64,000 bases of DNA, taken from contig OU744447.1 in the NCBI GenBank assembly GCA_916610825.1, forward strand, positions 35,333,024-35,397,023, given 5' to 3'. This stretch comes from Haliclystus octoradiatus (taxonomy: Eukaryota > Cnidaria > Staurozoa > Stauromedusae > Haliclystidae). Both the position numbers and the translations under genes were made by a program. Positions 21,598-64,000 of this stretch are shown here, one piece after another. How positions within the stretch are numbered: position 1 is the stretch's first letter; each line of letters begins with the position of its first letter. Under the pieces are notes generated by a model. The model made no database searches and was not told where the DNA came from. It saw nothing but the letters and a program-made list of their open reading frames with translations.

Positions 21598-22440
21598 GAT
21601 GTCAAAAGCAGCTAAAATCATACTCAAATAAAACCTAATTAGAACAATTTAGATATATATACAGTATACCAATATTTAATTAAATCCAACCTTATTATAT
21701 AGTACGCAAGTTGTCACCTGAGAGATGTTTATTTTCCGATGTTTATTTTCCGGGGGGGGGGGGTAACTTCAATACTTTGAGTATACGGGGACGTTCAAAA
21801 ATTAAAGGGTACCTTTTTCAAAATCCTGAACAAATTTTTAGGGTATGCCTTTATCAAAAAATGTTTTGACGTATCATTTTGACATTGATGTCAAAGGCAG
21901 CTAAATCATACTCAAATAAAACCTAATTAGAACAATTTAGATATATATATACAGTATACCAATATTTAATTAAATCCAACCTTATTATATAGCACGCAAG
22001 TTGTCACCTGAGAGATGTTTATTTTCCGGGGGGGGGGGTAACTTCAATACTTTGAGTATACGGGGACGTTCAAAAATTAAAGGGTACCTTTTTCAAAATC
22101 CTGAACAAATTTTTAGGGTATGCCTTTATCAAAAAATGTTTTGACGTATCATTTTGACATTGATGTCAAAGGCAGCTAAATCATACTCAAATAAAACCTA
22201 ATTAGAACAATTTAGATATATATATACAGTATACCAATATTTAATTAAATCCAACCTTATTATATAGTACGCAAGTTGTCACCTTAGAGATGTTTATTTT
22301 CCGGAGGGGGGGGGTAACTTCAATACTTTGAGTATACGGGGACGTTCAAAAATTAAAGGGTACCTTTTTCAAAATCCTGAACAAATTTTTAGGGTATGCT
22401 TTTATCAAAAAATGTTTTGACGCATCATTTATGACACTTT
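21598..22440 (+). repeat. three-copy tandem repeat of about 275-288 bp with a G-run
   Basis: Three successive copies begin near 21598, 21886 and 22160 (GATGTCAAA.GCAGCTAAA). Each has CTCAAATAAAACCTAATTAG, a poly-G run of 8-12 bases after ATTTTCC, and ACGGGGACGTTCAAAAATTA. The G-run differs in length or composition in every copy. A partial fourth match (GTATACGGGGACGTTCAAA) sits at about 23545-23600. Non-coding. Confidence 0.92.
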
Positions 22441-34945: not shown

Positions 34946-37564
34946 TACTACTACTACTACCAATTATCGTTTGATTCTCATTGCTCTCACTAAAAAGGCT
35001 ATATATGATAGCTTGGCATGTAGGCCCATGCTTACTGTACCTCTGCATTAACAGCCTTAGTGAAGAGTCAGATAACTGATGTCCATGCTGTGCATTTTGA
35101 CGATGACAGCACCATGGCCTGAATCGGTCGATGTGTGTTTAACCTGGGATCACAAATGAAATTGTCACAGCTGAATGCAGATGCCCAGCTTAGTGCAGAA
35201 ATACTCTTTGTGAACAGAGCTGTTGGTGCAATGATTGTCTCCAAATCCTCTGACATTATTATCAACTCCTAATCCATTACTCTGGTATGTATTTCCTAGC
35301 CTTCACATTTAACCATTTTTGACTGCTGAACAATGGCTCACAATTTTGAATTCAACCCAAGTCAGACAATCAGACACAAATGTTTCTTTTTTTAATTATT
35401 CAAGTGTAAGCCTAGGAGAGGTTAGGTACTCTTCGGACGCCTTTCGGTTTTTTACATGTAATTGTTTTACTTATTGCTCAAACATGTATTCTTGATTTCT
35501 TTAATGCTTCAAAATAACTATCGAAAATCGTAGATTGAATTCAAGTGCTCACAGAAGCAATCCCAAACAAAATCAACACACAATCATAGATCAACAACAG
35601 TAAACCAAACTCTACAAAATATATAAATGAACACATGTATGTGTTTTTATTGCATTATTTTGTGCCGAAGGGTCATCCGCGCTATAAAATGTTTACACAC
35701 CATAAAAACAGCTGAAGTGTTTCAAACTTGAATGGAATGGGAAACGTGAAAGCCATATCGCATTACCATTGTTTCACAGCTTGACATCTTACTTTTGAAG
35801 CGCATGTGTAGCGCAAAAGTATTCTAAAAGTGATCCAAGCCATTCCGCATATCTTGAAAAACCCCAAATTGACATTTTTGACTTCCTACCGTTTCATAAA
35901 GGCTTGTGAGCAGATTTGTGATCGCTTATGAATTGAATCCCAATGTTTTGATTGGCGATATCGAACTGTGCAATCAACAATGAGACAATTTTTTGGGTTG
36001 ACTTGTTGAGTCTCACTTCTGTGTTATGCCGATCTTGATGGACTGGGAAGTGAGACTTGTGTCCTTTGAGAAATCTATGGTCTTGAAACACAGAGAGACC
36101 GCCTCAGTTCACAGGAAATGCTGCACGTAGCTGTTAGTGTTCCAGGGAGTCAATGTGGAACGTGAAATCATATGACACCTGAAAATTGCTAAGCTATTGA
36201 GTTTGTGTAGAGTTCTGAAAGATTAGGCTACATGTATTATTAAATGTTGATTCCCCATCAAAGGCTGAATTATAAAGAGAACGACTATGAATTACAGTGT
36301 AAATGTAGAGCAAGACGTGATACAAACAGAAGTAAGTGTAAATTGTTAATACGGTAAACACAAGATTCAATCATGAAAATGAGGCAGCAAAACAAAAGCG
36401 GGACTTGAGCCAGTCAATATTTCGGGATGTTTGTGGACACTGGTAGGTTGGTTTAATCAATTAAAGTGTTGAAATTTTCTTGGGATGGCAGGGACAATTG
36501 ATGAATCTCCAGAACAAAATAGGCTACTTATCTGGAAACTACTACTACTTTGTTTTGTTGCTAAAAGGTTAGTATTAATTCAGTCTGCAAATAAATTGGC
36601 AATCTTGACCAGATCTCGGGGGAGGAAGCGCCAAAAAAACTAGGGGTAGAGGTGGCAACTGATCAAATTTGACTTCAGGGGCGCCAAAATCATCATTTCA
36701 GCAAAAATTGTGAAGAGAAAATGACAAAAAATAATTTTTAACTGCCAATTTTCGATGAAAACTGCTGCATCAGGGGTGGCGATTGTGAGAAAAATTTCAT
36801 CTCAGGGTTGCGGCTGCCATGCTTTGCAGACCGGGTATTTATCACGCACATTTGAGAATGATTTAAATGTTATTGGCAAAGATAACCAATTTAAGATTGA
36901 GTCACTGCTTGAAAAAATTGGCTGAAAAAAGTCCCAGTAGTCAAATACGCACGCGCGAAAACATGATCATCAATACCGTATTTCTAATTTCCTAGTACAG
37001 TATAGCCTTACTTTCTTTTTTGTTGCCTAGTTCATCTTGGTCTTCCAAATGTTCATGTCGACGTTGAATTATCTATCACATGATGAGATGACACATCAAG
37101 ACAAGCTAACACTTATCATATTGTCAGACGTCTATGATTCCATCCTTAGTCTATTAAGTCATTTTAGTCAATGTATGTAATATGTAGATAAGTTAGATTC
37201 ATAGCAGTCTCCAAGTTGAATATGATATAAGTTGCCTCTACTATTTGATAGAAGGCTAAATGTTTTCAAGTTTACATGACCAAAGCCATGCGGTCCATTC
37301 CATGCGAAAGAGTAATCTTTTACAAGTAAATAACGGAGAAAGATAGGTACATATTACACCAAAGATTCAAGGTCCACACTAAGTTCGAGTAACATGTATT
37401 ACAGCCATTTTGAACTCTTTGATTGAGGGATGGCGGGAAGGATTTGATTTTTGTTTGAGTTGAGTGACAGTGATTGATATCTCCCTCATGACGTCACTTG
37501 CGCCCAAATCCTTTTTATCGCCAATAACATCAACAACAACATTTACTACGTGAACTGCCTCGTG
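34946..37564. other. non-coding stretch
   Basis: No supported gene. A CTA-triplet run starts at 34944. Small frames at 35068-35265 and 35894-36091 (minus) have no family features. A patch at 36600-36840 has several GGGG-rich words (GGGGGAGGAAGCGCC, CAGGGGCGCC) suggesting an old element end, not classifiable. Confidence 0.5.
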
Positions 37565-37877
37565 TAGGCCGTGGGCCGAACTAAGAATCGTTCGAAAAGG
37601 CTAGACACTTGTCGAGGACAAGGTTTGAGGTCAAGATATTCAATTATATACAGTTAGCAATGTTTTGTTAAATTTTCGCAAGTTTTCACTCACCAGTTCA
37701 GTATTTAATTTTGTTGTTAATATCGCCAATTTTATGCCAAATTTTGTAGCCATTATGTCAAGTTCAACTGAATGTTTTCGAAGGCGCAATTTATTTTGCC
37801 TCGCTTTCATGAGCACAATGCACCTGATTGGCTGTTGTCCGTTGACAACAGAATGCGTTGGTAGCAACATAATGGGG
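37565..37877. repeat. left terminal inverted repeat
   Basis: The outer 13-mer (37565-37577) is followed by 16 bases not shared with the right end. Then 284 bases (37594-37877) are almost exactly the reverse complement of 43979-44262; translation of the 231-base core differs at a single codon. It carries an outward-pointing 76-codon frame that is probably fortuitous. Confidence 0.93.
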
Positions 37878-37979
37878 CAGCGATCGTTAATATCCTAGAT
37901 TTCGCAATAAAGAACGTTTTCATTTTAGAATGGCAAGCGTTTAAATTAATTTTTCGAGTTAAAATGATAGTTACTGGTC

Positions 37980-40900
37980 ATGGAAACTGATAATAGTAGT
38001 AAAGAGCCTTTAAATTGTGTATGTTTGGTTCATTTTGAGAGTTTTACTGGAAAATTATGCTCTTTCACAGCCAAAAGATTTTCTACTTTTTTATCACGTC
38101 GGGACGAGTGGCTAAATTTTGCTAACATCCAAAGCTCCATTGCCAAAAATTCATTAGATTTTTGCAAAGGGACACCAGAGGATTTATTAAATTGTGAAAA
38201 ATATTTTTATCATGAAAGATGCTACCAGCGGTTTACTGATAAAACAGAATTAATCCGAGCAAATAAACGTCAAAATTCAACGAAAGTGTCACAGAGCAAT
38301 GAATCTCAATCAGAATTTTCAGAGAACTTTAGCAGCAAATCAGAATCTGTCCCTGCTAAGGTCACAAGGTCAGCTAGCTCATTTTCTCTTGTTGGAAAGG
38401 GAAGGAATCCACATGTGCTACCAAAAATCTGCATAATTTGCAAAAAAAAGTATTCTTATTATAATTGTAAGGTAAGATTTATCAACAAATCGTTATGAAA
38501 AACATCACTTTGTATAACGTCTTGTGAATACACCTATACTAAATTATTTCTCCTGGATCGTATATAGGTCAATTTTAAGACAACAATGGATCCTCTTCAT
38601 CAGGCAACTTCCAAAGAAGGGGGTACACTAAGGGAAGCAGCCGACATTAAGAAAGATGAAAGTATTCTGCATTACGTTATGGTTGGAGATTTTGTTTCCA
38701 ACGAAGTGCATTACCATCAACGATGTTACAACAACTACGTCCGTTTCTTGTACCCAGTAAAGTCTGCCAAAAATGAGCAATCCAAAGCGGACACGCCCAA
38801 GAACACAAGACTGTACGAAGCTTCATATAAAATTTTTGTAGATAATGTGATTAAAGTTAAAATTTTGAATTTGCATGAAACCTATACAATGAAAACGTTA
38901 TTCTCAATCTTCGTCGAAACCGTTGATCAAGTCGAGAACCTTGATGCGAAAAATTACAATAGGTCTCGGTTCAAACACAAGTTAGTTGTAGATTTTCCAG
39001 AGTTGAAATTCTTCACGCCGAACAATAAAAGTAAAAGTGAAATTGTTTACTATGAAGATATTGATCCAGGACCAATTTTAGAAAAAAAAATGGAAACTGA
39101 AAGACTGTTGGAAGAAGACATCGACATCTCTCTAGAGGATGAGGATCAGGTGATGGACGATGATACGCTACAACAAATGCAAAACGAAGAGGTGTCAATA
39201 CTTTACAAAGCAGCATTAATCATACGCGGCAGTTTAGAGTCAGTAGAGAACTTTGCTAATGTATGGCCACCAACCTCCGTTGATATAAATAATGATGTCG
39301 CCAAAACCATTATTCCACCAAAGCTATATAACTTCCTATATATGCTCCTGAATAAGTCAATGAACGATGAATTAAAAGAAAATGACGTAAGTCTTGAGAG
39401 AAAAATAATGGCAGTCGCCCAAGATATGATATTTATCTATCATCGTGGAAGAAAAATCACCCCCAAATCTGTTGCTTTGAGCATGGCTGTAAGGCAGATA
39501 GCTGGTTGCTCAAGTATAATTGATATTCTGAACGGCTTCGGTCACTGTATTTCCCATTCATCCACTTTAAGGTAACATCATGATCCTTTTTACTGCTGTA
39601 TAGAAATGTTTTTGAGACAAGTTTATGTTAAATATTCACTCCTGTGGTTTATCCGATAGGTATGAAACTGACCTGGCCAAGATAAGTATGTGCAATGGTG
39701 TCCCTAAGCAATTACACCCTGGTTGTCATACTATGCTCGTTTTTGATAACGATGATTTTGGCGAAGAAGTCAAGCAGGCAACTCATATTACTAATGGAAT
39801 TGCCATTCAACCTGTAACTTCAATTTCAATTGCTGCTGATTCTGTTAGTAGAGTGTCCATAAAAAAGTCTAGACGTAAAACTCTGCAATACCAAAAACCC
39901 CAGATATTGCCGTATTGCATTACCAAAAAAGCTTCACCAGATTTTTCCGGTAATAAATTAGTAGATGTAACGTTAAATAGTATTGATTTACAGCTGCCAA
40001 AACAAAAGTTGGATTTTGCATATTCCGTTATGAAAAAGATCAAAGGCAATGAATTACCAGATTGGACGGGCTTTAATACTCTTTTAGATTCTTCAGACAT
40101 CGCTGTACTTTCGAAAGTTACTTACCTTCCCGTTATTCCTGCCTCTCCTACAGAATATTCAACAGTTTATACCATACTAATAAAATGCCTAGAAATTCAG
40201 AAGTATCTAGGACTACCTTCTATTCCTGTTGTATTTGATGAGGCCATCTATGCCAAGGCGCAGCAAATTCGTTGGGAAAACAAGGAATTTCAAGAAAATT
40301 TAGTACTTCGTCTTGGTGAATTCCATACCGCAATGTCGTTTTGTGGTGCTATAGGAAAGCTATTCCGAGATGCAGGATTGCAGGTAATTGTTTTAGTATA
40401 GTCTAGCTCAATGCTCGTACCTAGATTAATAGTAAATATAATGACATTCTAAAGTTCTTTCAAATTGTGACTTTCAGGATATTCTAGTTGAAGCAGGCAT
40501 TGCGGGGCAGGAGTCAGTCAACGGTGTTTTAAGTGGAAAATTTTATAATGGAAGTGTCCGTTGCCATAAAGTGATGCACGAAGCACTTGAAAGATTACGA
40601 TTTGAAACATTCTTAGACCACTGTGAAGAGTCTGTTGTTTCAAAATTCAGCGAACAAATTAGTCAGCTATCATATGCATTTCCAAGTGATCAATTTTCCA
40701 AATGTTTAGAGAGCGAGGATTTTAGTTTCATTTGGGATCATTACATGAAATTCGTACAAAAAAGCAACGATGAATGTCCGACGTTTGCGCTATGGTCCTC
40801 TTATATTAAAGTTACTGGTAAGAATTGATTTTCGGAGCAATTATCAATTGTCTGTAATTTCACTGTTGTAATAACTATCGCATTCTTCGTTGAAATCAGG

Positions 40901-43770
40901 TCTGCTGATGACGTTTATCAGAGCAACTCGTCAAAATAACTGGGATTTACACGTATCGTCTTTACGATCTATGCTTCCGTGGCTCTTTGTGGCAGATAGA
41001 GTTCATTACTCTCGTTATTGCTCTGCGTATTATCTCGAAATGATTTCGTTGGAAAGCTCTCATCCAGGTATATACATTATCCAACATTTCAAAAAGTATT
41101 AAATAAAATAGTGTTCTCAAATATTTATATAAGTGTAAATATATACTGAATAAATCGTTATCAATTTTTTGATAGAGACATATTCAGCACTCAAAAAACA
41201 ATGGACTGTCCAGCGACAGGATAAATATGGCTTTTCTTCCGTTGCCTGTGACCAAACAATTGAACAAACAGCGAACAGAGATTCAAAAACTAAAGGTGGT
41301 GTAATTGGTTTTACTCTCAATAAAGGAGCTGTTCATCGTTGGCTTCTCGCACAACCTGAAAGATCCTCTATTATGAATCAATGTCAATTGATGGCTGGTA
41401 TCAATTTAGAGACAAGGTACCAGTCGCGTTCATTTTGTATAATAGTATAAAGTATATTATTGAGCTGAACTAATATTTTTGTTTTGGACTTAATAAGGAA
41501 ACGGAAGAACCTTGATAAACCGCAACGCCAGAGGCATGAAAAGGATGTACAAAGTGTTCTTTCCACCCTAAATTCAATGGTCAACCCATTTGATATTTCT
41601 GAAAAATCTGTTATTCAGCTTTCTAGTGGTATTGTTGGCCCAGAAGATGTGAAGAACGGTCTATTAAAAGCAGAAGAAACCGGAGAAAATCTATTTATGA
41701 AATTTGCTAAAGAAAACTTACTCGGTGATTCCCCAGATTTGTTTGCGACATTAAAGAAAGTGCAGCTTCATACCTTTACCACATGCGCGAAAACTTTCAA
41801 ATTGACAACTTCGAAAGGACAGGTGATATCCTTGAAATCTTCTAGGAATCTCTGCGCTCGACTGCTTCTGCTTGCCCGCTCGCAAGAAATTGATCTAAAA
41901 ATCGTTCTATCGTATTCCCTTGATATGTTCCCACTCAGTTTATCCACTATCGAAGGTTGTATGACGAAAACGAACAAGTCAAAGCTTCTACATATCTTAG
42001 AAGGTATTTTTAACCTTTCACAATTGAAACAAAAGTCAAACTCTTATTATACATCTTAACCATTATTTTCAATTTACATATTTAGGTCTATCATCTAATT
42101 GTCGTGTCACTACTGTACCAGAAAATTGTGCATTAATGGTTGACGCAATGGCTATATTACAGAAATTGAGCAACATTCCCAGTACATTTGGTGGTATTGC
42201 AGCCACTGTTATGTCAAAACTAAAATCCCAAGCATATTTGTATGGTGCCAAAAGAGTCGATTTTGTTGCCGATACTTATCCATTGATGAGCATAAAAGCA
42301 ACTGAAAGGGACCGTCGAGCTGCCAAAGGCGCAACCATTATAAAAATATACTCTTGTGAACAAAAAAGTCCTGTTCAGTGGGCAAAGTATTTACGCCATA
42401 GATATAATAAGGAAGCTTTAATAGACTTCATTTTTAATACTTGGAGTAAAATAGACCCCAAAGATTTACCATTCCATTTATACTGTACAGTTGGTACTGA
42501 ATGCATGAAAATCAACCCTCAACACTCTGAAACTGTTGTAACAACAGTCCCGGAACTATTTTCCGATCATGAAGAAGCCGATACCAGACTGTTACTACAT
42601 GCAAACCATGCATCTGAAGCAGGGTACGAAAACGTTATCATTGCCAGTCCTGATACAGATGTTCTCGTACTAATGACTGAGAAGCAATCAGAAATGAAGA
42701 CCAACCTGTATTTTTCTACTGGATCTCGAGACCAGGCTAGAATATTGAATGTTAAACACATCTCAGACTTTTTGAACAATCATATCCGTACGAGTTTGAT
42801 TGGTTTTCATTCATTCACAGGTATGTATTCTAATACATATATATTACTTCTAATGAAAAAACGATTGCAGGGCTACCAAGAAAGATGCTCAAATAGGCGA
42901 ACATTTTTTGAGAGGGCGTTTTCAAAAGGCTCACTCTTCTAAGCGTCCATAGTTGATTATATACCTCGTGAACATTAGCAGGCTGCCATAATTAATAGAT
43001 ATCGAATAATTCCACAAGGAAGAAACAGCAATAGAGTGAAGCAAGCATTAATGTTAAAATTGAAATGTCATATTCAGCTGTGTACGTCCTGAAATGCCTG
43101 TTTCAATGTCATTCCAGGTTGCGATTCTGTTAGTTCATTTTTTGGCAAAGGTAAAGAAACTTGCTGGAAATTGCTTAACACCTCAAAACGAACAGGAATA
43201 TTTCAAACACTTGGACGTGCTAACAAGCTAACTGAACAGCTTTTGAAAGATTTCGAGATATTTATTTGTTCCCTTTATGGCCAACATGGAACCATCAGTG
43301 TAAATTGTGCACGCTTTAATGCATTCAAAAGTGGAACATTTTCCAGTGAGTCCCTTCCCCCGAATGAAGATTGCCTCCGTAAACATTTGCTACGCGCCAA
43401 TTACCAAGCCTATATTTGGAAAAATTGTTTGAAACAGAAAATTAACGCTCCCAATCCAATCGGGAATGGTTGGCTAGATAAAAACGATACCTTAAAAATA
43501 GATTGGATGGACAAAAAACCTATACCTGATGAGCTTCTAGAAACAGTGAACTGCGGATGCAAAAGTGGCTGTACAACAAACAGATGTTCTTGCCAAAAAT
43601 CAGGCCAAAAATGTAATGAATTCTGTAAATGTAAAGGTTGCAAAAATTCTGAAATGAATTCTCTAGTTGATCCAGACGAACCCATAGAAAAAGAAAACGA
43701 TAATCAAAATACCTACTGCCCCGATGATTTGGAATCTAGTGACGACGATTACGAAGTTGATAATTTTTAA
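37980..43770 (+). CDS. transposon-encoded XPG/FEN1-like nuclease with CXC domain, 1,620 aa
   Basis: Nine exons: 37980-38471, 38568-39571, 39660-40383, 40478-40817, 40900-41067, 41176-41416, 41498-42003, 42086-42820, 43118-43770. All introns are GT-AG, every phase agrees, and the join has no internal stop. Seen in order: an N-terminal Cys/His-rich part with two similar modules (YHERCYQRF, then CIIC...YHQRCYNNY); an acidic linker near residue 350; a central block with VVFDEAIYAKA (D692) and DQTIEQT (D935, E939), then GGVIGF; and a nuclease-like block. The nuclease-like acidic series is D1178 (LMVDAMAIL), D1221 followed by a K/R-rich stretch, E1321/E1322/D1324 (EEADT), D1348/D1350 (PDTDVL) and D1406 (TGCD, then GKGK). 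Order and spacing follow the XPG/FEN1 active site. A CXC domain (about 1549-1580) and an acidic tail end the protein. Inference: it cuts and binds its own element's DNA. A domesticated gene is unlikely given the TIRs. Confidence 0.9.
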
Positions 43771-43978
43771 CACCGTTATGTTATATAAATCACGTTATAA
43801 ATTATGAATTATTATTTATTCCATTTTTGTAACCATTTGATTTGATAAATATTCATAGTTTAGTATATTTACTCAGTTTTCAACAATTCAATTATAATCA
43901 TATTAACTTTAATCGAATTAATATATGTTAACACATTAACACGTTAATTTGAAAATGTTTCGTTGTTGTTCATGTTGG

Positions 43979-44301
43979 CCCCATTATGTTGCTACCAACG
44001 CATTCTGTTGTCAACGGACAACAGCCAATCAGGTGCATTGTGCTCATGAAAGCGAGGCAAAATAAATTGCGCCTTCGAAAACATTCAGTTGAACTTGACA
44101 TAATGGCTACAAAAATTGGCATAAAATTGGCGATATTAACAACAAAATTAAATACTGAACTGGTGAGTGAAAACTTGCGAAAATTTAACAAAACATTGCT
44201 AACTGTATATAATTGAATATCTTGACCTCAAACCTTGTCCTCGACAAGTGTCTAGCCTTTTCACGCTTTCTGGCGTTTATTGCTTTTTGGCCCACGGCCT
44301 A
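43979..44301. repeat. right terminal inverted repeat
   Basis: Reverse complement of the left repeat: 43979-44262 pairs with 37594-37877. A 26-base stretch (44263-44288) does not match the 16-base left counterpart, and then comes the shared terminal 13-mer at 44289-44301. Confidence 0.93.
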
Positions 44302-45109
44302 GTGGTGATTTTCTTTCGTTTTCGAATTTTGTAAGCGTCATAATATTCATGCTGATTCATTTTACATAGATTATTTACAAAGAAAATGTTCTACACAACC
44401 ATTTGATATTTATTGGTGATATTAGGTATTCTTACTTTCTACATGTGATATGTTTTATTTATTTATTAATTCATTGTCATATCCCATTTCACTGTCTTCA
44501 TGCTTGAATGAACAATAGACCGGCCGGGCAACTTGCTTCCAAGGTTCAGTTCATGTCGAATATGTCCGAGAGATTTACATTATTATTATTGTTATACAAC
44601 TCGATATAAGTTTAAGTGTGACAAACATTTTGTTATTATTATGGCATGTTTGATGAAAATTTGAGTAGGCTAGGCCTACTTCATTGTGTTATATGAAGAA
44701 GTTTCCGGAGCAGTGTTTGTTTGTCTTGGACCTACAGGCTATACTTTGAGAATTCATTCTCATTAATAGGTTACAGTTAAATTAGACCTCCGGTTTAACC
44801 GGTGTTTATTCAAAATATATTCAATCTATATTTTCGAAGAAAAAACATTCATGATGTTGATCAAAGGGCATACAATTGTTTACCTCTGATATTTTTTGAT
44901 TGGCTAACCTTTGATACTTAATATCATTCCTGTGAAAAGCTTGTTTATCATTCCTGTGAGGTTTATTCCGAATAAATGATGACGATGATGATGAAGCGCG
45001 AAGCCAATTACACTGATGAACACTTTTCACCTTGTATAAGGGGTGGGGGAGTTCCTATAATAATTTGAAGCTGTTTCATAAATTATATTTGATTTGTTTT
45101 TACCTTCAG
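44302..45109. other. intergenic stretch upstream of the membrane-protein gene
   Basis: No element is fully defined. ATTTTTTGATTGGCTAACC and a GAATAAATGATGACGATGATG tail (about 44880-45000) resemble the LINE 3' tails elsewhere in the window. Any promoter or 5' UTR exon of the downstream gene should lie here or further left; none could be pinned down. Confidence 0.4.
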
Positions 45110-45125: not shown

Positions 45126-48100
45126 ATGTCTAATATAACTGATGATGTTACATCCCTTGGCTGTTTCAAGACTTTTGATACGATATCTTGCGTCAGGTAA
45201 GTTGGTTAGTAGCTTCCTAGTTCTATTACATGAATCAGTCCTGTGAAAAAATTTATTGCAAAACTTATCAGGTTTTGGGAGGATTAGCTCAGATGGCAGC
45301 GCAACCGAACTTCAGATCTGATCATATCTGATCGACTGTGATTCGAATCTTCCAAATGTCAACTCAGCATTGACTTTATTTATATAAGACATCGAATCAA
45401 TAGGTCATCTAAGCATGACGGATTGGATGGTCCAGAGGGAATTACATTGTGAGTTACTGCGTCACAGGGGTTGTAAGGATTTTACGACGTCACTTCTAGC
45501 GTCACAAATCAAATGATATTTCTGATAAATTAAGTTACCTTATTCCCATAACGATCTAAATTTTCGTTGCTCAGTTATCAGAATATTAATTGACCAAATA
45601 GTCCCAAACACATATCACATTATAAGACAAAAGACGGTGTTTATGTTTAGCATTGATGTAAATGATTCAACACTTATTCACAAAGCAATGCAGCAATTAT
45701 TCAAAATCTGTACGAGTTAGATTAATGTACAAATTGAATCAATTTTAAATTATTTAACCGGGATTGTACATTCGATATGTCGGCCTACTTACCGTGCGAA
45801 AAACAATTTAGGAGTTTATGAACAGTTCATGAAAATTGGGGCCATTCAACGTTCATGGACTGTTCATGAAAATTGGGGCCATTCAACGTTCATGAACAGT
45901 TCATGAAAATTGGGGCCATTCAACGTTTATGAACAGTTCATGAAAATTGGGGCCATTCAACGTTCATGAACAGTTCATGAAAATTGGGGCCATTCAACGT
46001 TCATGAACAGTTCATGAAAATTGGGGCCATTCAACGTTCATGAACAGTTCATGAAAATTGGGGCCATTCAACGTTCATGAACAGTTCATGAAAATTGGGG
46101 CCATTCAACGTTCATGAACAGTTCATGAAAATTGGGGCCATTCAACGTTCATGAACAGTTCATGAAAATTGGGGCCATTCAACGTTCATGAACAGTTCAT
46201 GAAAATTGGGGCCATTCAACGTTCATGAACAGTTCATGAAAATTGGGGCCATTCGTTCATGAACTCCTGAACTGTTTTTGACAGTTGTCACTATCTATAT
46301 GTCATTGTCTATTTGTTAGCGGGACTTTATGCGAGATACCTAATGACCTAGGACATCAGAAGGGTCTTTGATGAGTCCCCTGGCATCATCATCATCATCA
46401 TCATCATTTATTCAGAAACCTTCAAATTATACATAACTTTTTTTAACATAACATAACTTTATACTTTTATCATAACTTTATACATTACATAAACATTTCA
46501 AAGACTGATACATGTTGCATACATTGTTAAGTTAACAGGCAAACAGACATTAAGTAATAAAAGGTTTAAATAACAGGAATGAGTGGTACTTGTATAAAGT
46601 ATCTTAAGAACGTAAGTGCTTCTCAAGGAGACATTTGAATGTAGGCCTGCTTTGGACTTCCTTCATTTCAAACAGTAGATTGTTCCACCTATGTGCTCCA
46701 GCATCTTGAAATTAAACTACTCAAATTATAAGATCAAAAGGGCATACTATTGTTTGCCTCGGATATTTTTTGATTGGAAACTTGTATAAAGTATCTTAAG
46801 AACGTAAGTGCTTCTCAAGGAGACATTTGAATGTAGGCCTGCTTTGGACTTCCTTCATTTCAAACAGTAGATTGTTCCACCTATGTGCTCCAGCATCTTG
46901 AAATTAAACTACTCAAATTATAAGATCAAAAGGGCATACTATTGTTTGCCTCGGATATTTTTTGATTGGAAGCCTTTCATGAACACTTGGCAGAAGGCAG
47001 AGACAAAACATATGTCAGACCAGCCTTGTCAATTTAATTAATTTACTCAATTAAAAATAATATATAAAAAATGTTTTTAATCTTAACATTGCTAGGTTCT
47101 GACTGTATACCTTAGAATATATATGTTTATTTTGAGAATTAATATCAATAATTCATGTTTTCTTTTGTAGAGATTCCATAACAGCATTCATTGCTACATT
47201 AACTGCGTTGCTATGTATTTACAAGGTAGGCTTAAAAGCTATTAACATTTATTTGCAATAGTTCAAACTGTGTATTTTTTAAAGTATGTTAAAGAATGTC
47301 ATCGGACATAGAAATGATGTACTGTACTGGCTTAAGGCTCAATTATTTGTAGTCCCATGTGTTGGCAAAGCCAATCCCTTAAATGATAGGCCTACTTGCG
47401 CTACTAGCCTTTAACCACATTGAAGAGTATTGCAGCACATCATCAAACATCAAAATTATATGCAGGTCTATTTAATCGAAAGTGTTGTGTTGAAATAAAT
47501 TATTATTTTTGTAGGAAAAGATATATCTGCCTAGTTGATTAGTAAAACATTGTAGAGCAATTATCAAGGCCGTAACTATGCCTACATGCTTCTAACAGGA
47601 AAGGACACAGGGAGAGGGGTCAATTTATTTTGCCCAACACAATTGCCATTTTTTCCTGGAAAAAGGTGTGTCATTTGCAGATGGTGAGTTTCAGTAGGCT
47701 ACTGTAATTCCTTCAAACTTGGCAAAAGATGAGTCAGAAATATTTATAAGAGGGATATCACCCTTTTACCCCCGATGATGTACGGTTGTGCAATTAATTT
47801 TCACCCAAACGTCGTACATTTCAACGTGCTACAATTACATTCATCGTTTAAAAAATTTGCAAATATTTACCTGATGGTTTGTATTATAGAGATGACACAG
47901 GATCTATAAAGCTCATGCCCTAAATGATCTAGACATGTTATCGCACACCATCATATGATTGTTGTCATGACAACACGAATCATGGATAGCAGTTTTCACG
48001 GCAACAAAAATTTATTCTTTTTAACATCACATATGCTTGTAAATCCCAATTCGATGGAAAAGAGCATGTCTCTTTATTCAAATAACTGTCCAGCAAGTTG

Positions 48101-60907: not shown

Positions 60908-63900
60908 TAGGGGTGGGACAATAAACCGAATAACCGGTTAACCGTTTTTAAAGCCCACCACCGGTTTTTTGTTTTAGCAATCAATAAACCGCGGAAGTAA
61001 TGTTTTTTTTTTTAATTTACAGTTTCTCACAAAAATAATAATTTTTCACGTCTGGTGATAATATTTTGCAAATTTCATTGTGTTTTGTTGTTTTCAATAT
61101 TTCAATGATTCAATTACTGTGCGATTAGAATGCACTTGAGACCCATCACCAACCCCACATCACAAAGAGATAGACACAGCGGCGACAAAAATGTTTTGTT
61201 TACGTTTGCTTCGGGAAGTGAAAAGTAAACAGTTTATTTGTAATATTTGTTGCTCACGACTTCATTCAACAATTTAAAATCCGTACAGTAAATATTATTA
61301 CATTGTACAACGCCAATCGAAAGACTTTTTTAAAAAGAAACCGTCTGTTGTATTCATAATTTTGTTTTAGTTGAGTTCTACTTTCTGCAAGCCTATTGAT
61401 TGAATCAGTTAATTTAGTTATTGCATTAAAATTGAATAATTCTTAAACAACCATTAAACAACTCAACAAATTTTTCTGGCGTGTGCGAATGTAATCTAAC
61501 ATAAATATTATAAAAATATAATAATAATAGTCGGTGTGAATGTAAAACTAGTCGGTGTGAATGTAAAACTATCACATAGCAGTGAAACTTGTATATATTT
61601 AACAATAGTTGTGATCATGCTGTGATCAATTAACAGCTTGCTATTCAAAGTTTGAAACAAAAAGATTGAATACATTGACATGTTTATAATTTGGCGTCAC
61701 ATTCAACTCCAAATTTACAATGGATTCCCAAAAGAATTCCAAAAATAGACCCAGCAACTGAAATATATAAATAACATACAAGTTTGAATTTCATTAACTT
61801 AAGAGTTTGACCACAGCTATTCATCATCACAGCAGTTGATTACTAGTTATATTTTCAAGATGCCACGAAGTGACGTATGGAATCATTTTACTACAAGGGA
61901 TAACAAGATAACTGCGAAATGCAACATCTGTGGTAACAGTTACAAATGTTCTGGTGGCACATCAAATTTAAGAGAGCATTTGACCAGATCGCATTCAAAT
62001 ATTTACAATGAGCAGACAACCAAAGCGCCTTCAGTTAAAACATTTTTCAACAAACAGAAGCTAAGCGATTTAAAGTCGAAATCGATTACTAATCACATTG
62101 TTAATTTATGCATTAAAGACTTGCAACCGTTCAGAATTGTCGAACATGAGGGATTTCGAGAGCTATTGCAACAAGCTTGGCCAACGTATGTGATTCCATG
62201 CCGCAAAACTTTACGTGCAGCCGTCTTACATCGTCACACAGAAGCCATGGATTATTTGAGAACTGATCTTGCCTCTACAATTGGCGATGTTACAATCACA
62301 ACGGATGGATGGACCAGCATTTCACAAGACGGCTACAATACAATTACAGGTAAGAGTAAATTTGATTTTCTTTCGACTGTATTTAATGTTTCAGTGCAAT
62401 ACTTTTGCGTTAATTTTAATTCAAGTTGTTGCCAGGCTAGCTTTTATTTAGGCCCACTGCCAAAACTACTGAAATATTAATTTGAACAATTGTTGTTTCT
62501 TGAGTCTGCAAGTATTTACAGGCCTGATTAAATTTGTTTTAATTTATTATGCAATGTTTTCATGCGTGTTATGTGTTTGTATTCACAGTCCATTACCTCA
62601 AAGACTGGGAAATGCAATCACGTGTACTGTCGACCCGATCAACATTCCTTCGTCACACTGGCGAGAACTTGGCAGACGAAATAAACGCCGTATTGAGAGA
62701 ATTTGATATTCAACAAAGAGTATTTGCCTGCATCCACGACAACGCAGCAAACATAACACTTGCTGGCGACATGGTTCTTGGAACACTAGATAGACTTGGT
62801 CCCTTCAGCATTGGTTGTGCAGCTCACAATTTGAACCTTTGCATTAAAGATGCTATGTTATCCAATAATGCTATCAGCAAACTGATCGGTGGCGCCAGAA
62901 AATTAGTTGGACACTTCAATATGTCAACCGTTGCTACCAACGGGTTAAAATCGAAAACGAAAGACATGCTTGCAAGTGATCATAACGACAAAAAACTTGT
63001 GCAAGATGTACCTACAAGATGGAACTCGGTCTATGCCATGCTTGAAAGATTGTTGTTAATGAGATGGCCTGTTGTTGCTGTATTATCCGACAGGACGTTG
63101 ACAAAGCTCGCAGATGCTCAAAATTTGGACTTAGCGCCTGAGTCGTGGTTACTTGCAGAGGAGATCGTTCCTTCTTTACATCTGGTAGAATTGGCAACTG
63201 TATTATTCAGCTCTCAAAGCTACTCAACATCAGGAGTTGTTCTACCTACCATCACTGGGTTGTTACATCAACTAAAGGAAATGTCATTCACTGAGCTACG
63301 AAGCAATTCCAGACGAAGAACTGCCACTACCTGTCCTGGTCAATTATTCAGAGATGCCTTGGTCAAATCATTAAAAGAAAGATTTAATGTGGACCTCATC
63401 GAAGGAACAAGACTTGACCGCAACAAACAACCTATAATACCGTTGATGAATGAAGAAGACACCGACACAACAGATGAATTACCGTTTCACGTCCTAGCAT
63501 CTTTCGTCGATCCGCGATTCAGACATCTGTCATTCTTGGCTACTGCTCAACGAACCAAAACTATTGAATTGGCTTCAAGAATGATTGAGGGAATACCTGA
63601 ACGAGATGTGGTTGAGATTAATGGAAACAATGCTGCTCCGATTGAACCGCCGAAAAAGAAATCTAAAACTCAATTGGCATTCCAGATGCTTCTCCAGCCG
63701 TCTCAATCACAAGCGATGTCAGCCAATTTGAGTCATGTAAATGAAAGCGTAAAGGAAGAAGTGTTCAGGTATTCGCTAGAGCCACCCATTGACATTAATG
63801 AAAATCCATTGGAATGGTGGAAGGAGAATTGTAAAAAATATAATTGGTTACAGAGATTAGCTAAACGCCTTCTTGCAGCTCCACCAACTTCCGTACCGAG

Positions 63901-64000
63901 CGAACAGATATTTAGCAAGGCAGGACTTATTGTTAGGAAGCAACGAGCGTTGTTGATGGCCTTATATTTTTAAATAAAAATAAGATGTAACTAATTATTA
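60908..64000 (+). mobile_element. hAT element, right end outside the window
   Basis: The left end TAGGGGTGGGACAATAAACC is followed by GAATAACCGGTTAACCG, a G-rich hAT-like terminus with subterminal AACCGGTT palindromes. About 950 bases of 5' sequence, including a direct repeat of AGTCGGTGTGAATGTAAAAC near 61530-61572, precede the transposase gene. The right inverted repeat and target duplication cannot be seen. Confidence 0.75.
61860..63973 (+). CDS. hAT transposase with BED finger, C-terminus frameshifted
   Basis: Two exons (61860-62349 and 62589-63973, GT-AG, phase-consistent) encode 624 residues. The ATG at 61860 fits directly before the BED finger (C21, C24, H40, H45). The RNase H-like hAT core follows: D149 in TITTDGWTS, D214 in CIHDNAANI, the CAAHNLNLCIKD block, and W308 in DVPTRWNSVY. 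The C-terminal dimerisation region has NPLEWWKEN, then PTSVPSEQIFSKAG with E602. The protein ends prematurely in QRALLMALYF. One frame over, the DNA just before the stop reads VDGLIFLNKN, the usual end of hAT proteins. A small deletion has therefore removed a few residues and shifted the frame. It catalyses cut-and-paste transposition when intact; this copy may be impaired. The acidic DDE residues are all present. Confidence 0.88.

Follow-up and report, generated by a model that had tools for sequence, protein, structure and literature searches.

The locus and the question

A 64,000-nucleotide stretch of DNA from Haliclystus octoradiatus (contig OU744447.1; hereafter the window) carries, between inverted repeats, a spliced gene for a long protein with cysteine-rich modules and nuclease-like motifs. 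The locus raises the question of what kind of transposon this is, and which part of its protein moves it. An earlier note, made from the sequence alone, had described an intact, recently mobile element without a classical transposase, for which it knew of no superfamily name. In the present study, the element was compared with its copies and relatives in the same genome, and its features were set against published descriptions of known transposons. The COX1 gene of this genome, on contig C33, is open when TGA is translated as tryptophan, and arginine seems the best reading of its AGA/AGG codons, a code suggestive of a cnidarian or sponge.

Boundaries and terminal repeats

The element spans 6,737 bp and has the termini TAGGCC...GGCCTA; the boundaries previously proposed, 37565 and 44301, are correct. 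Its ends are composed of two blocks of inverted repeats, an outer one of 16 bp (94% matching, the first 13 bp identical) and an inner one with arms of 285 bp, of which 284 positions match and only that at 37741 does not. The earlier description of the termini as near-identical holds for each of these blocks and fails for the short stretches between them, which do not match. The features are as follows:

37562–37564, no strand: left copy of the 3-bp target duplication, GTG
37565–44301, + strand: whole element, very probably of AcademX type, 6,737 bp, aligned with four further genomic copies
37565–37580, + strand: outer terminal inverted repeat, left (TAGGCCGTGGGCC...)
37594–37878, + strand: inner 285-bp inverted-repeat arm, left, with one mismatch at 37741
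43978–44262, − strand: inner 285-bp inverted-repeat arm, right
44286–44301, − strand: outer terminal inverted repeat, right (...GGCCCACGGCCTA)
44302–44304, no strand: right copy of the 3-bp target duplication, GTG

The surroundings are also repetitive. About 1.5 kb to the right of the element is a 37-bp tandem array (45814–46254, 11.9 copies, 98% matches), followed by a perfect two-copy repeat of 192 bp (46588–46971), and a 275-bp repeat is found at 21738–22436. Pieces of a hAT transposase occupy two open frames at 61803–63973 (+ strand), with matches to a BED zinc finger (E 6e-11) and to the hAT C-terminal dimerisation region (E 3e-13).

Genomic copies and empty sites

The first 636 bp of the element, used as a query against the organism's own genome (261.9 Mb in 33 contigs), gave 15 matches, in which five copies are each represented by a left end and a right arm. 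Four other loci were compared with the window copy over the full element, making five near-full-length copies in all, and these share an identical left end (5/5) and, in four of the five, an identical right end. They differ from the window copy by 1, 10, 42 and 77 substitutions, the closest being a sister copy at C2:36.1 Mb with a single substitution in 6,737 bp. Four copies, that of the window included, have an open reading frame; in the fifth (L012), which has deletions, it is broken. All five are flanked by a 3-bp target duplication: GTG in the window, TGT in the sister copy, and TAA, TAT and TAC in the remaining three. The TAT copy (L011) has an intact frame and a right end without the last 4 bp, CCTA, and because these bases are missing its duplication is the least secure.

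Empty sites could be compared for some of these insertions. The TAA copy (L010) sits within a dispersed repeat, and all three uninterrupted copies of this repeat that were fetched match its joined flanks across the junction without a gap, each with a single TAA. Three fetched empty sites also align for L011, yet show a 2-bp difference where the flanks meet, in keeping with the damaged end of that copy. The flanks of the window insertion are unique, and no empty site for it was found in this assembly. The sister copy has a dispersed repeat as its left flank; most matches to this repeat end near the insertion, and among them there is no proven spanning empty site. The search for copies with the same ends and for empty sites, proposed in the earlier note, has thus yielded five copies and, for one of them (L010), empty sites. 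Near-identical copies, shared ends, 3-bp duplications and the empty sites of L010 bear out the suggestion of recent movement, and confirm a young, intact, recently mobile cut-and-paste transposon with terminal inverted repeats.

Gene structure

Nine predicted exons join in phase across eight GT-AG introns to encode 1,620 amino acids without an internal stop, followed by a stop codon, which confirms on sequence the frame first reported. The exons, all on the + strand, are:

37980–38471, + strand: exon 1, aa 1–164; Cys/His module and C154, invariant in 4/4 full-length families
38568–39571, + strand: exon 2, aa 165–498; second Cys/His module, H214 and C217 invariant in 4/4 full-length families
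39660–40383, + strand: exon 3, aa 499–740; D528-N-x-D531, D692, GxxH721
40478–40817, + strand: exon 4, aa 741–853
40900–41067, + strand: exon 5, aa 854–909
41176–41416, + strand: exon 6, aa 910–989; D935xxxE939xxxN943
41498–42003, + strand: exon 7, aa 990–1158
42086–42820, + strand: exon 8, aa 1159–1403; FEN1-like motifs D1178, D1221, E1322/D1324, D1348/D1350
43118–43770, + strand: exon 9, aa 1404–1620; GCD1406...GKGK, CXC cluster

The exon model gains support from L196, a copy from a related family, in which seven of the eight donor GT sites and seven of the eight acceptor AG sites align with those of the window element, identity is 61–76% in exons and 41–57% in introns, and the aligned coding sequences differ at 29.3, 19.5 and 55.1% of first, second and third codon positions, respectively. 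The reading frame looks to be under selection across families.

Related families in the same genome

The C-terminal 419 residues gave at least 124 matches in the genome (100 of 334 candidates scored), with identities of 30% to 79% when the five near-identical copies are excluded, and the longest open frame among the matches listed has 1,544 codons. In one alignment (A1), identity to a relative of family A (L047) was 25% for family D (L049), 24% for family E (L050) and 34% for the window protein. The alignment A1 pattern was also used beyond this genome, where 42 stretches in viral contigs and 25 in genome contigs were obtained and none was confirmed as a relative.

The ends of the relatives were placed by eye from the flanks, or at the point where two copies cease to match. 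Read in this way, related families terminate in TAG...CTA with duplications of 3 or 4 bp. Family D (L049) has the end TAGTAGGGG... and the duplication GTG, and family E the end TAGTGGGGG... with the duplications CTT in L050 and ATCA in L051. One end could be read in each of three further families: ...CTA in family B (L033, L034 and L035, not L036), TAG... in family I (L040, L041) and ...CTA in family K (L037, L038, L039). The ends of family A elements were sought in L047 and L048 and not found; in both copies the gene is followed by a tandem repeat with units of about 167 bp, variable in copy number. The family E copy in L050 (C2:18528700-18535900) seems to be nested in a hAT-like element with CAGGGCC/GGCTCTG ends (L050:464-7101), which by eye is flanked by the 8-bp direct repeat CTTTGGAT.

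A conserved D/D/E-like core

The central part of the protein was aligned in ten rows, four from full-length families and six from partial relatives, four of the latter containing stops. Residues D528, N529, D531 and H541 are invariant in the nine rows that have a residue there, and G718, H721, D935, E939 and N943 in all ten. D692 is kept in nine of ten, the exception being a G in L185, a row with a stop, and position 886 is D in all eight of the ten rows that have a residue there. Hydrophobic stretches lie ahead of both D528 and D692, a GxxH follows the second D, and the E comes about 220 residues further on. The series D528...D692...GxxH721...E939 resembles a DDE transposase with a large insertion, so that the earlier statement that the protein lacks any DDE-like signature is very probably wrong. 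Other triads are conceivable, since D886 and D935 are conserved too. The candidate residues are:

39745–39747, + strand: candidate catalytic D528 (predicted role), D in 9/9 rows with a residue
40237–40239, + strand: candidate catalytic D692 (predicted role), D in 9/10 rows
41262–41264, + strand: candidate catalytic E939 (predicted role), E in 10/10 rows

Profile searches of the PDB found no transposase or RNase-H protein, and returned a weak match to the CXC region of LIN54 (E 0.012 and 0.049) together with a few chance-like matches. When the core was compared with the window's own hAT transposase, the score (16.1) was that of the shuffled median (16.2). Family D overlaps the Pfam family DUF6589 (PF20231) at profile positions 276–402 of 410, with an E-value of 0.0017 that is under the cut-off, and family E gives a weak match (E 0.055); a Pfam scan of the window protein gave no match to DUF6589, and a literature search found no paper on it. 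In passages of PMC9587614, the motif between the second D and the E of DDD/E transposases is given as C/DxxH, and Academ is not among the superfamilies named there as bearing it.

A FEN1/XPG-like nuclease and cysteine-rich modules

Two further features lie in the C-terminal part of the protein:

42088–43360, + strand: FEN1/XPG-like nuclease domain, approximate limits, exons 8–9, the span including intron 8
43552–43641, + strand: C-terminal CXC-type cysteine cluster, C1549–C1578

A nuclease profile of 13 sequences (21 rows minus two duplicates and six with stops) was compared with 59 archaeal FEN1 proteins, drawn from 80 loci listed out of 119 stretches. The match scored 36.2 (P 7e-4; the hhalign probability is 26% on its own scale), while 200 column-shuffled FEN1 alignments reached at most 26.7, with a median of 15.8, reversal of the target and of the query led to scores of 16.9 and 17.7, and residues 1–1150 of four families scored 19.7 against the FEN1 profile. 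A full-length realignment placed VDAMAIL, VADTYP..SIK..ER, EEAD, PDTDV and GCD...GKGK roughly in register with the FEN1 motifs. The sequence contains what is typical of FEN1/XPG, namely ordered acidic motifs and a GxD...GKGK like that of the helix-two-turn-helix. Neither the Pfam and PDB sequence searches nor the PDB profile search reported a relation to FEN1 (or, for the sequence searches, XPG), and an AlphaFold model of exon 8 as a single sequence was unusable (pLDDT 33.4). The acidic motif series remarked upon earlier is present, its profile match lies above all 200 shuffled controls, and its homology to FEN1 is supported at the level of sequence profiles.

The cysteine-rich parts noticed at the outset were also recovered. 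A CXC-type cluster is present although below the Pfam cut-off (TCR, E 0.011), and matched LIN54 in the PDB sequence search with an E-value of 0.08; the Cys/His modules are encoded in exons 1 and 2, where the residues listed above are invariant in the four full-length families.

Placement among known transposons

Academ is counted among the superfamilies that encode a DDD/E transposase (PMC9587614, in part), and a DDE/D profile has been used for it in a study where curated bivalve Academ elements average 5,565 bp (PMC10294476, in part). According to PMC10045372, target duplications are 9 or 10 bp in AcademH and 3 or 4 bp in AcademX, a difference seemingly tied to the presence of a helicase or a nuclease, respectively. 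The present element has a nuclease, terminal inverted repeats and a 3-bp duplication in five of five copies, its relatives show 3, 3 and 4 bp (three copies), and Pfam scans of four families reported no helicase. Since the nuclease, the lack of a detected helicase and the 3- or 4-bp duplications match the published description, the element very probably belongs to Academ, and to its nuclease-bearing AcademX lineage, a placement made by comparison with published descriptions. It is very probably a new example of a named group rather than a new kind of transposon. The superfamily and the lineage are said to go back to Kapitonov & Jurka 2010 and Kojima 2020, and the AcademX nuclease is reportedly, in Kojima 2020, of the XPG type.

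Given the D-D-(GxxH)-E series and the AcademX traits (PMC10045372 and PMC9587614, both in part), the earlier view of a protein outside the classical transposases and the named superfamilies is very probably mistaken. The note itself had named assignment to a known superfamily that has a DDE triad as an outcome counting against it, and this is very probably what is seen here, with a predicted triad. As a whole, the reading of the element as an autonomous, recently mobile AcademX transposon, with a putative RNase-H-like D528/D692/E939 centre and a FEN1-like domain that would trim flaps, is held with considerable confidence.

Two other assignments were tried and rejected: AcademH, on the 3-bp duplications and the absence of a helicase in the Pfam scans, and hAT, on the 3-bp duplications and the absence of a hAT domain from the Pfam reports. 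The target duplication of hAT elements is 8 bp.

It could also be argued that the element belongs to another superfamily than Academ, one whose transposase is the FEN1/XPG-like domain and whose central D/D/E residues have a structural role. The nuclease homology is the sole one for a catalytic domain to have statistical support, and an RNase-H-like fold of the centre was supported neither by the PDB profile searches nor by the hAT comparison. Even so, this is improbable, because all or nearly all of the ten rows keep the central acidic residues and the GxxH, even though identity to family A is no more than 24–34% for families D and E and the window protein, and because FEN1-type enzymes cut flaps, while no joining of DNA ends is known for them; moreover, Academ elements with a nuclease and 3- or 4-bp duplications have already been described (PMC10045372, in part). 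Membership of KDZ (Kyakuja-Dileera-Zisupton) or another Cys-rich transposon group, to which the CXC-type cluster and the Cys/His modules might point, is very unlikely, and no such group was among the Pfam matches. The 3-bp duplications of all five copies also stand against the 8-bp target duplication of Zisupton. A host gene with fortuitous flanking inverted repeats, or an artefact of the gene model, is refuted by the presence of five copies, dispersed in the genome, that share their left end and have target duplications and, for one, empty sites, for all that the gene is multi-exon and its frame looks selected.

Literature searches found no paper linking Academ with XPG; flap endonuclease, transposase and TIR together led to one gene knock-in review only, and neither for XPG in Academ-like transposons, in a broader search, nor for a FEN1-like nuclease with a CXC domain in transposons was there anything relevant among the matches listed.

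Proposed mechanism

On the AcademX reading, a single spliced protein would bind the long inverted repeats through its N-terminal zinc modules, and possibly through the C-terminal CXC cluster. The central RNase-H-like centre, D528/D692/E939 with its GxxH, would cut and join DNA, a role suggested by the conservation of these residues and by the listing of Academ as a DDD/E superfamily. Insertion would be into staggered cuts of 3 nt (3 or 4 nt in related families), and repair of such cuts would give rise to the target duplications that are observed. The most likely task of the FEN1/XPG-like domain is to trim flaps or gaps where the element is excised or inserted.

It may be speculated, tentatively and with some doubt, that this is a two-nuclease transposase, in which the RNase-H-like centre joins DNA and the FEN1-like domain processes the junctions, allowing both 3- and 4-bp duplications in one family and now and then the trimming of ends, such as the 4 bp missing from L011. 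Family E has both lengths, 3 bp in L050 and 4 bp in L051, and this would suit a trimming step, two copies being too few to conclude. The literature listings, which leave most subscription papers outside their scope, included no biochemical work on AcademX. The window copy differs from its sister by one substitution, its spliced frame is open, its ends are exact and it is flanked by a target duplication, which makes it a good start for a first AcademX transposition assay, and such an assay on this lineage would settle the role of a flap-nuclease domain inside a transposase.

Comparison with known systems

The element is like AcademX in having terminal inverted repeats, a nuclease within the transposon protein, target duplications of 3 or 4 bp, no detected helicase and a D/D/E-like series, and this comparison, made by description, has shown no difference. 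AcademH, of the same superfamily, is described with a helicase and with duplications of 9 or 10 bp (PMC10045372, in part), neither of which is seen in the window element. Compared with the DDD/E superfamilies that bear C/DxxH in passages of PMC9587614, the window protein differs in having GxxH. Likeness to DUF6589 (PF20231) is confined to the C-terminal part of that profile, matched by family D, and lies below the curated cut-off. Finally, the order of the acidic motifs is shared with FEN1, XPG and EXO1, and the GCD...GKGK of the element aligns with the archaeal FEN1 GTDY...GxGPK; the likeness is at profile level only, and the nuclease differs from these enzymes in being embedded in a transposon protein of 1,620 amino acids.
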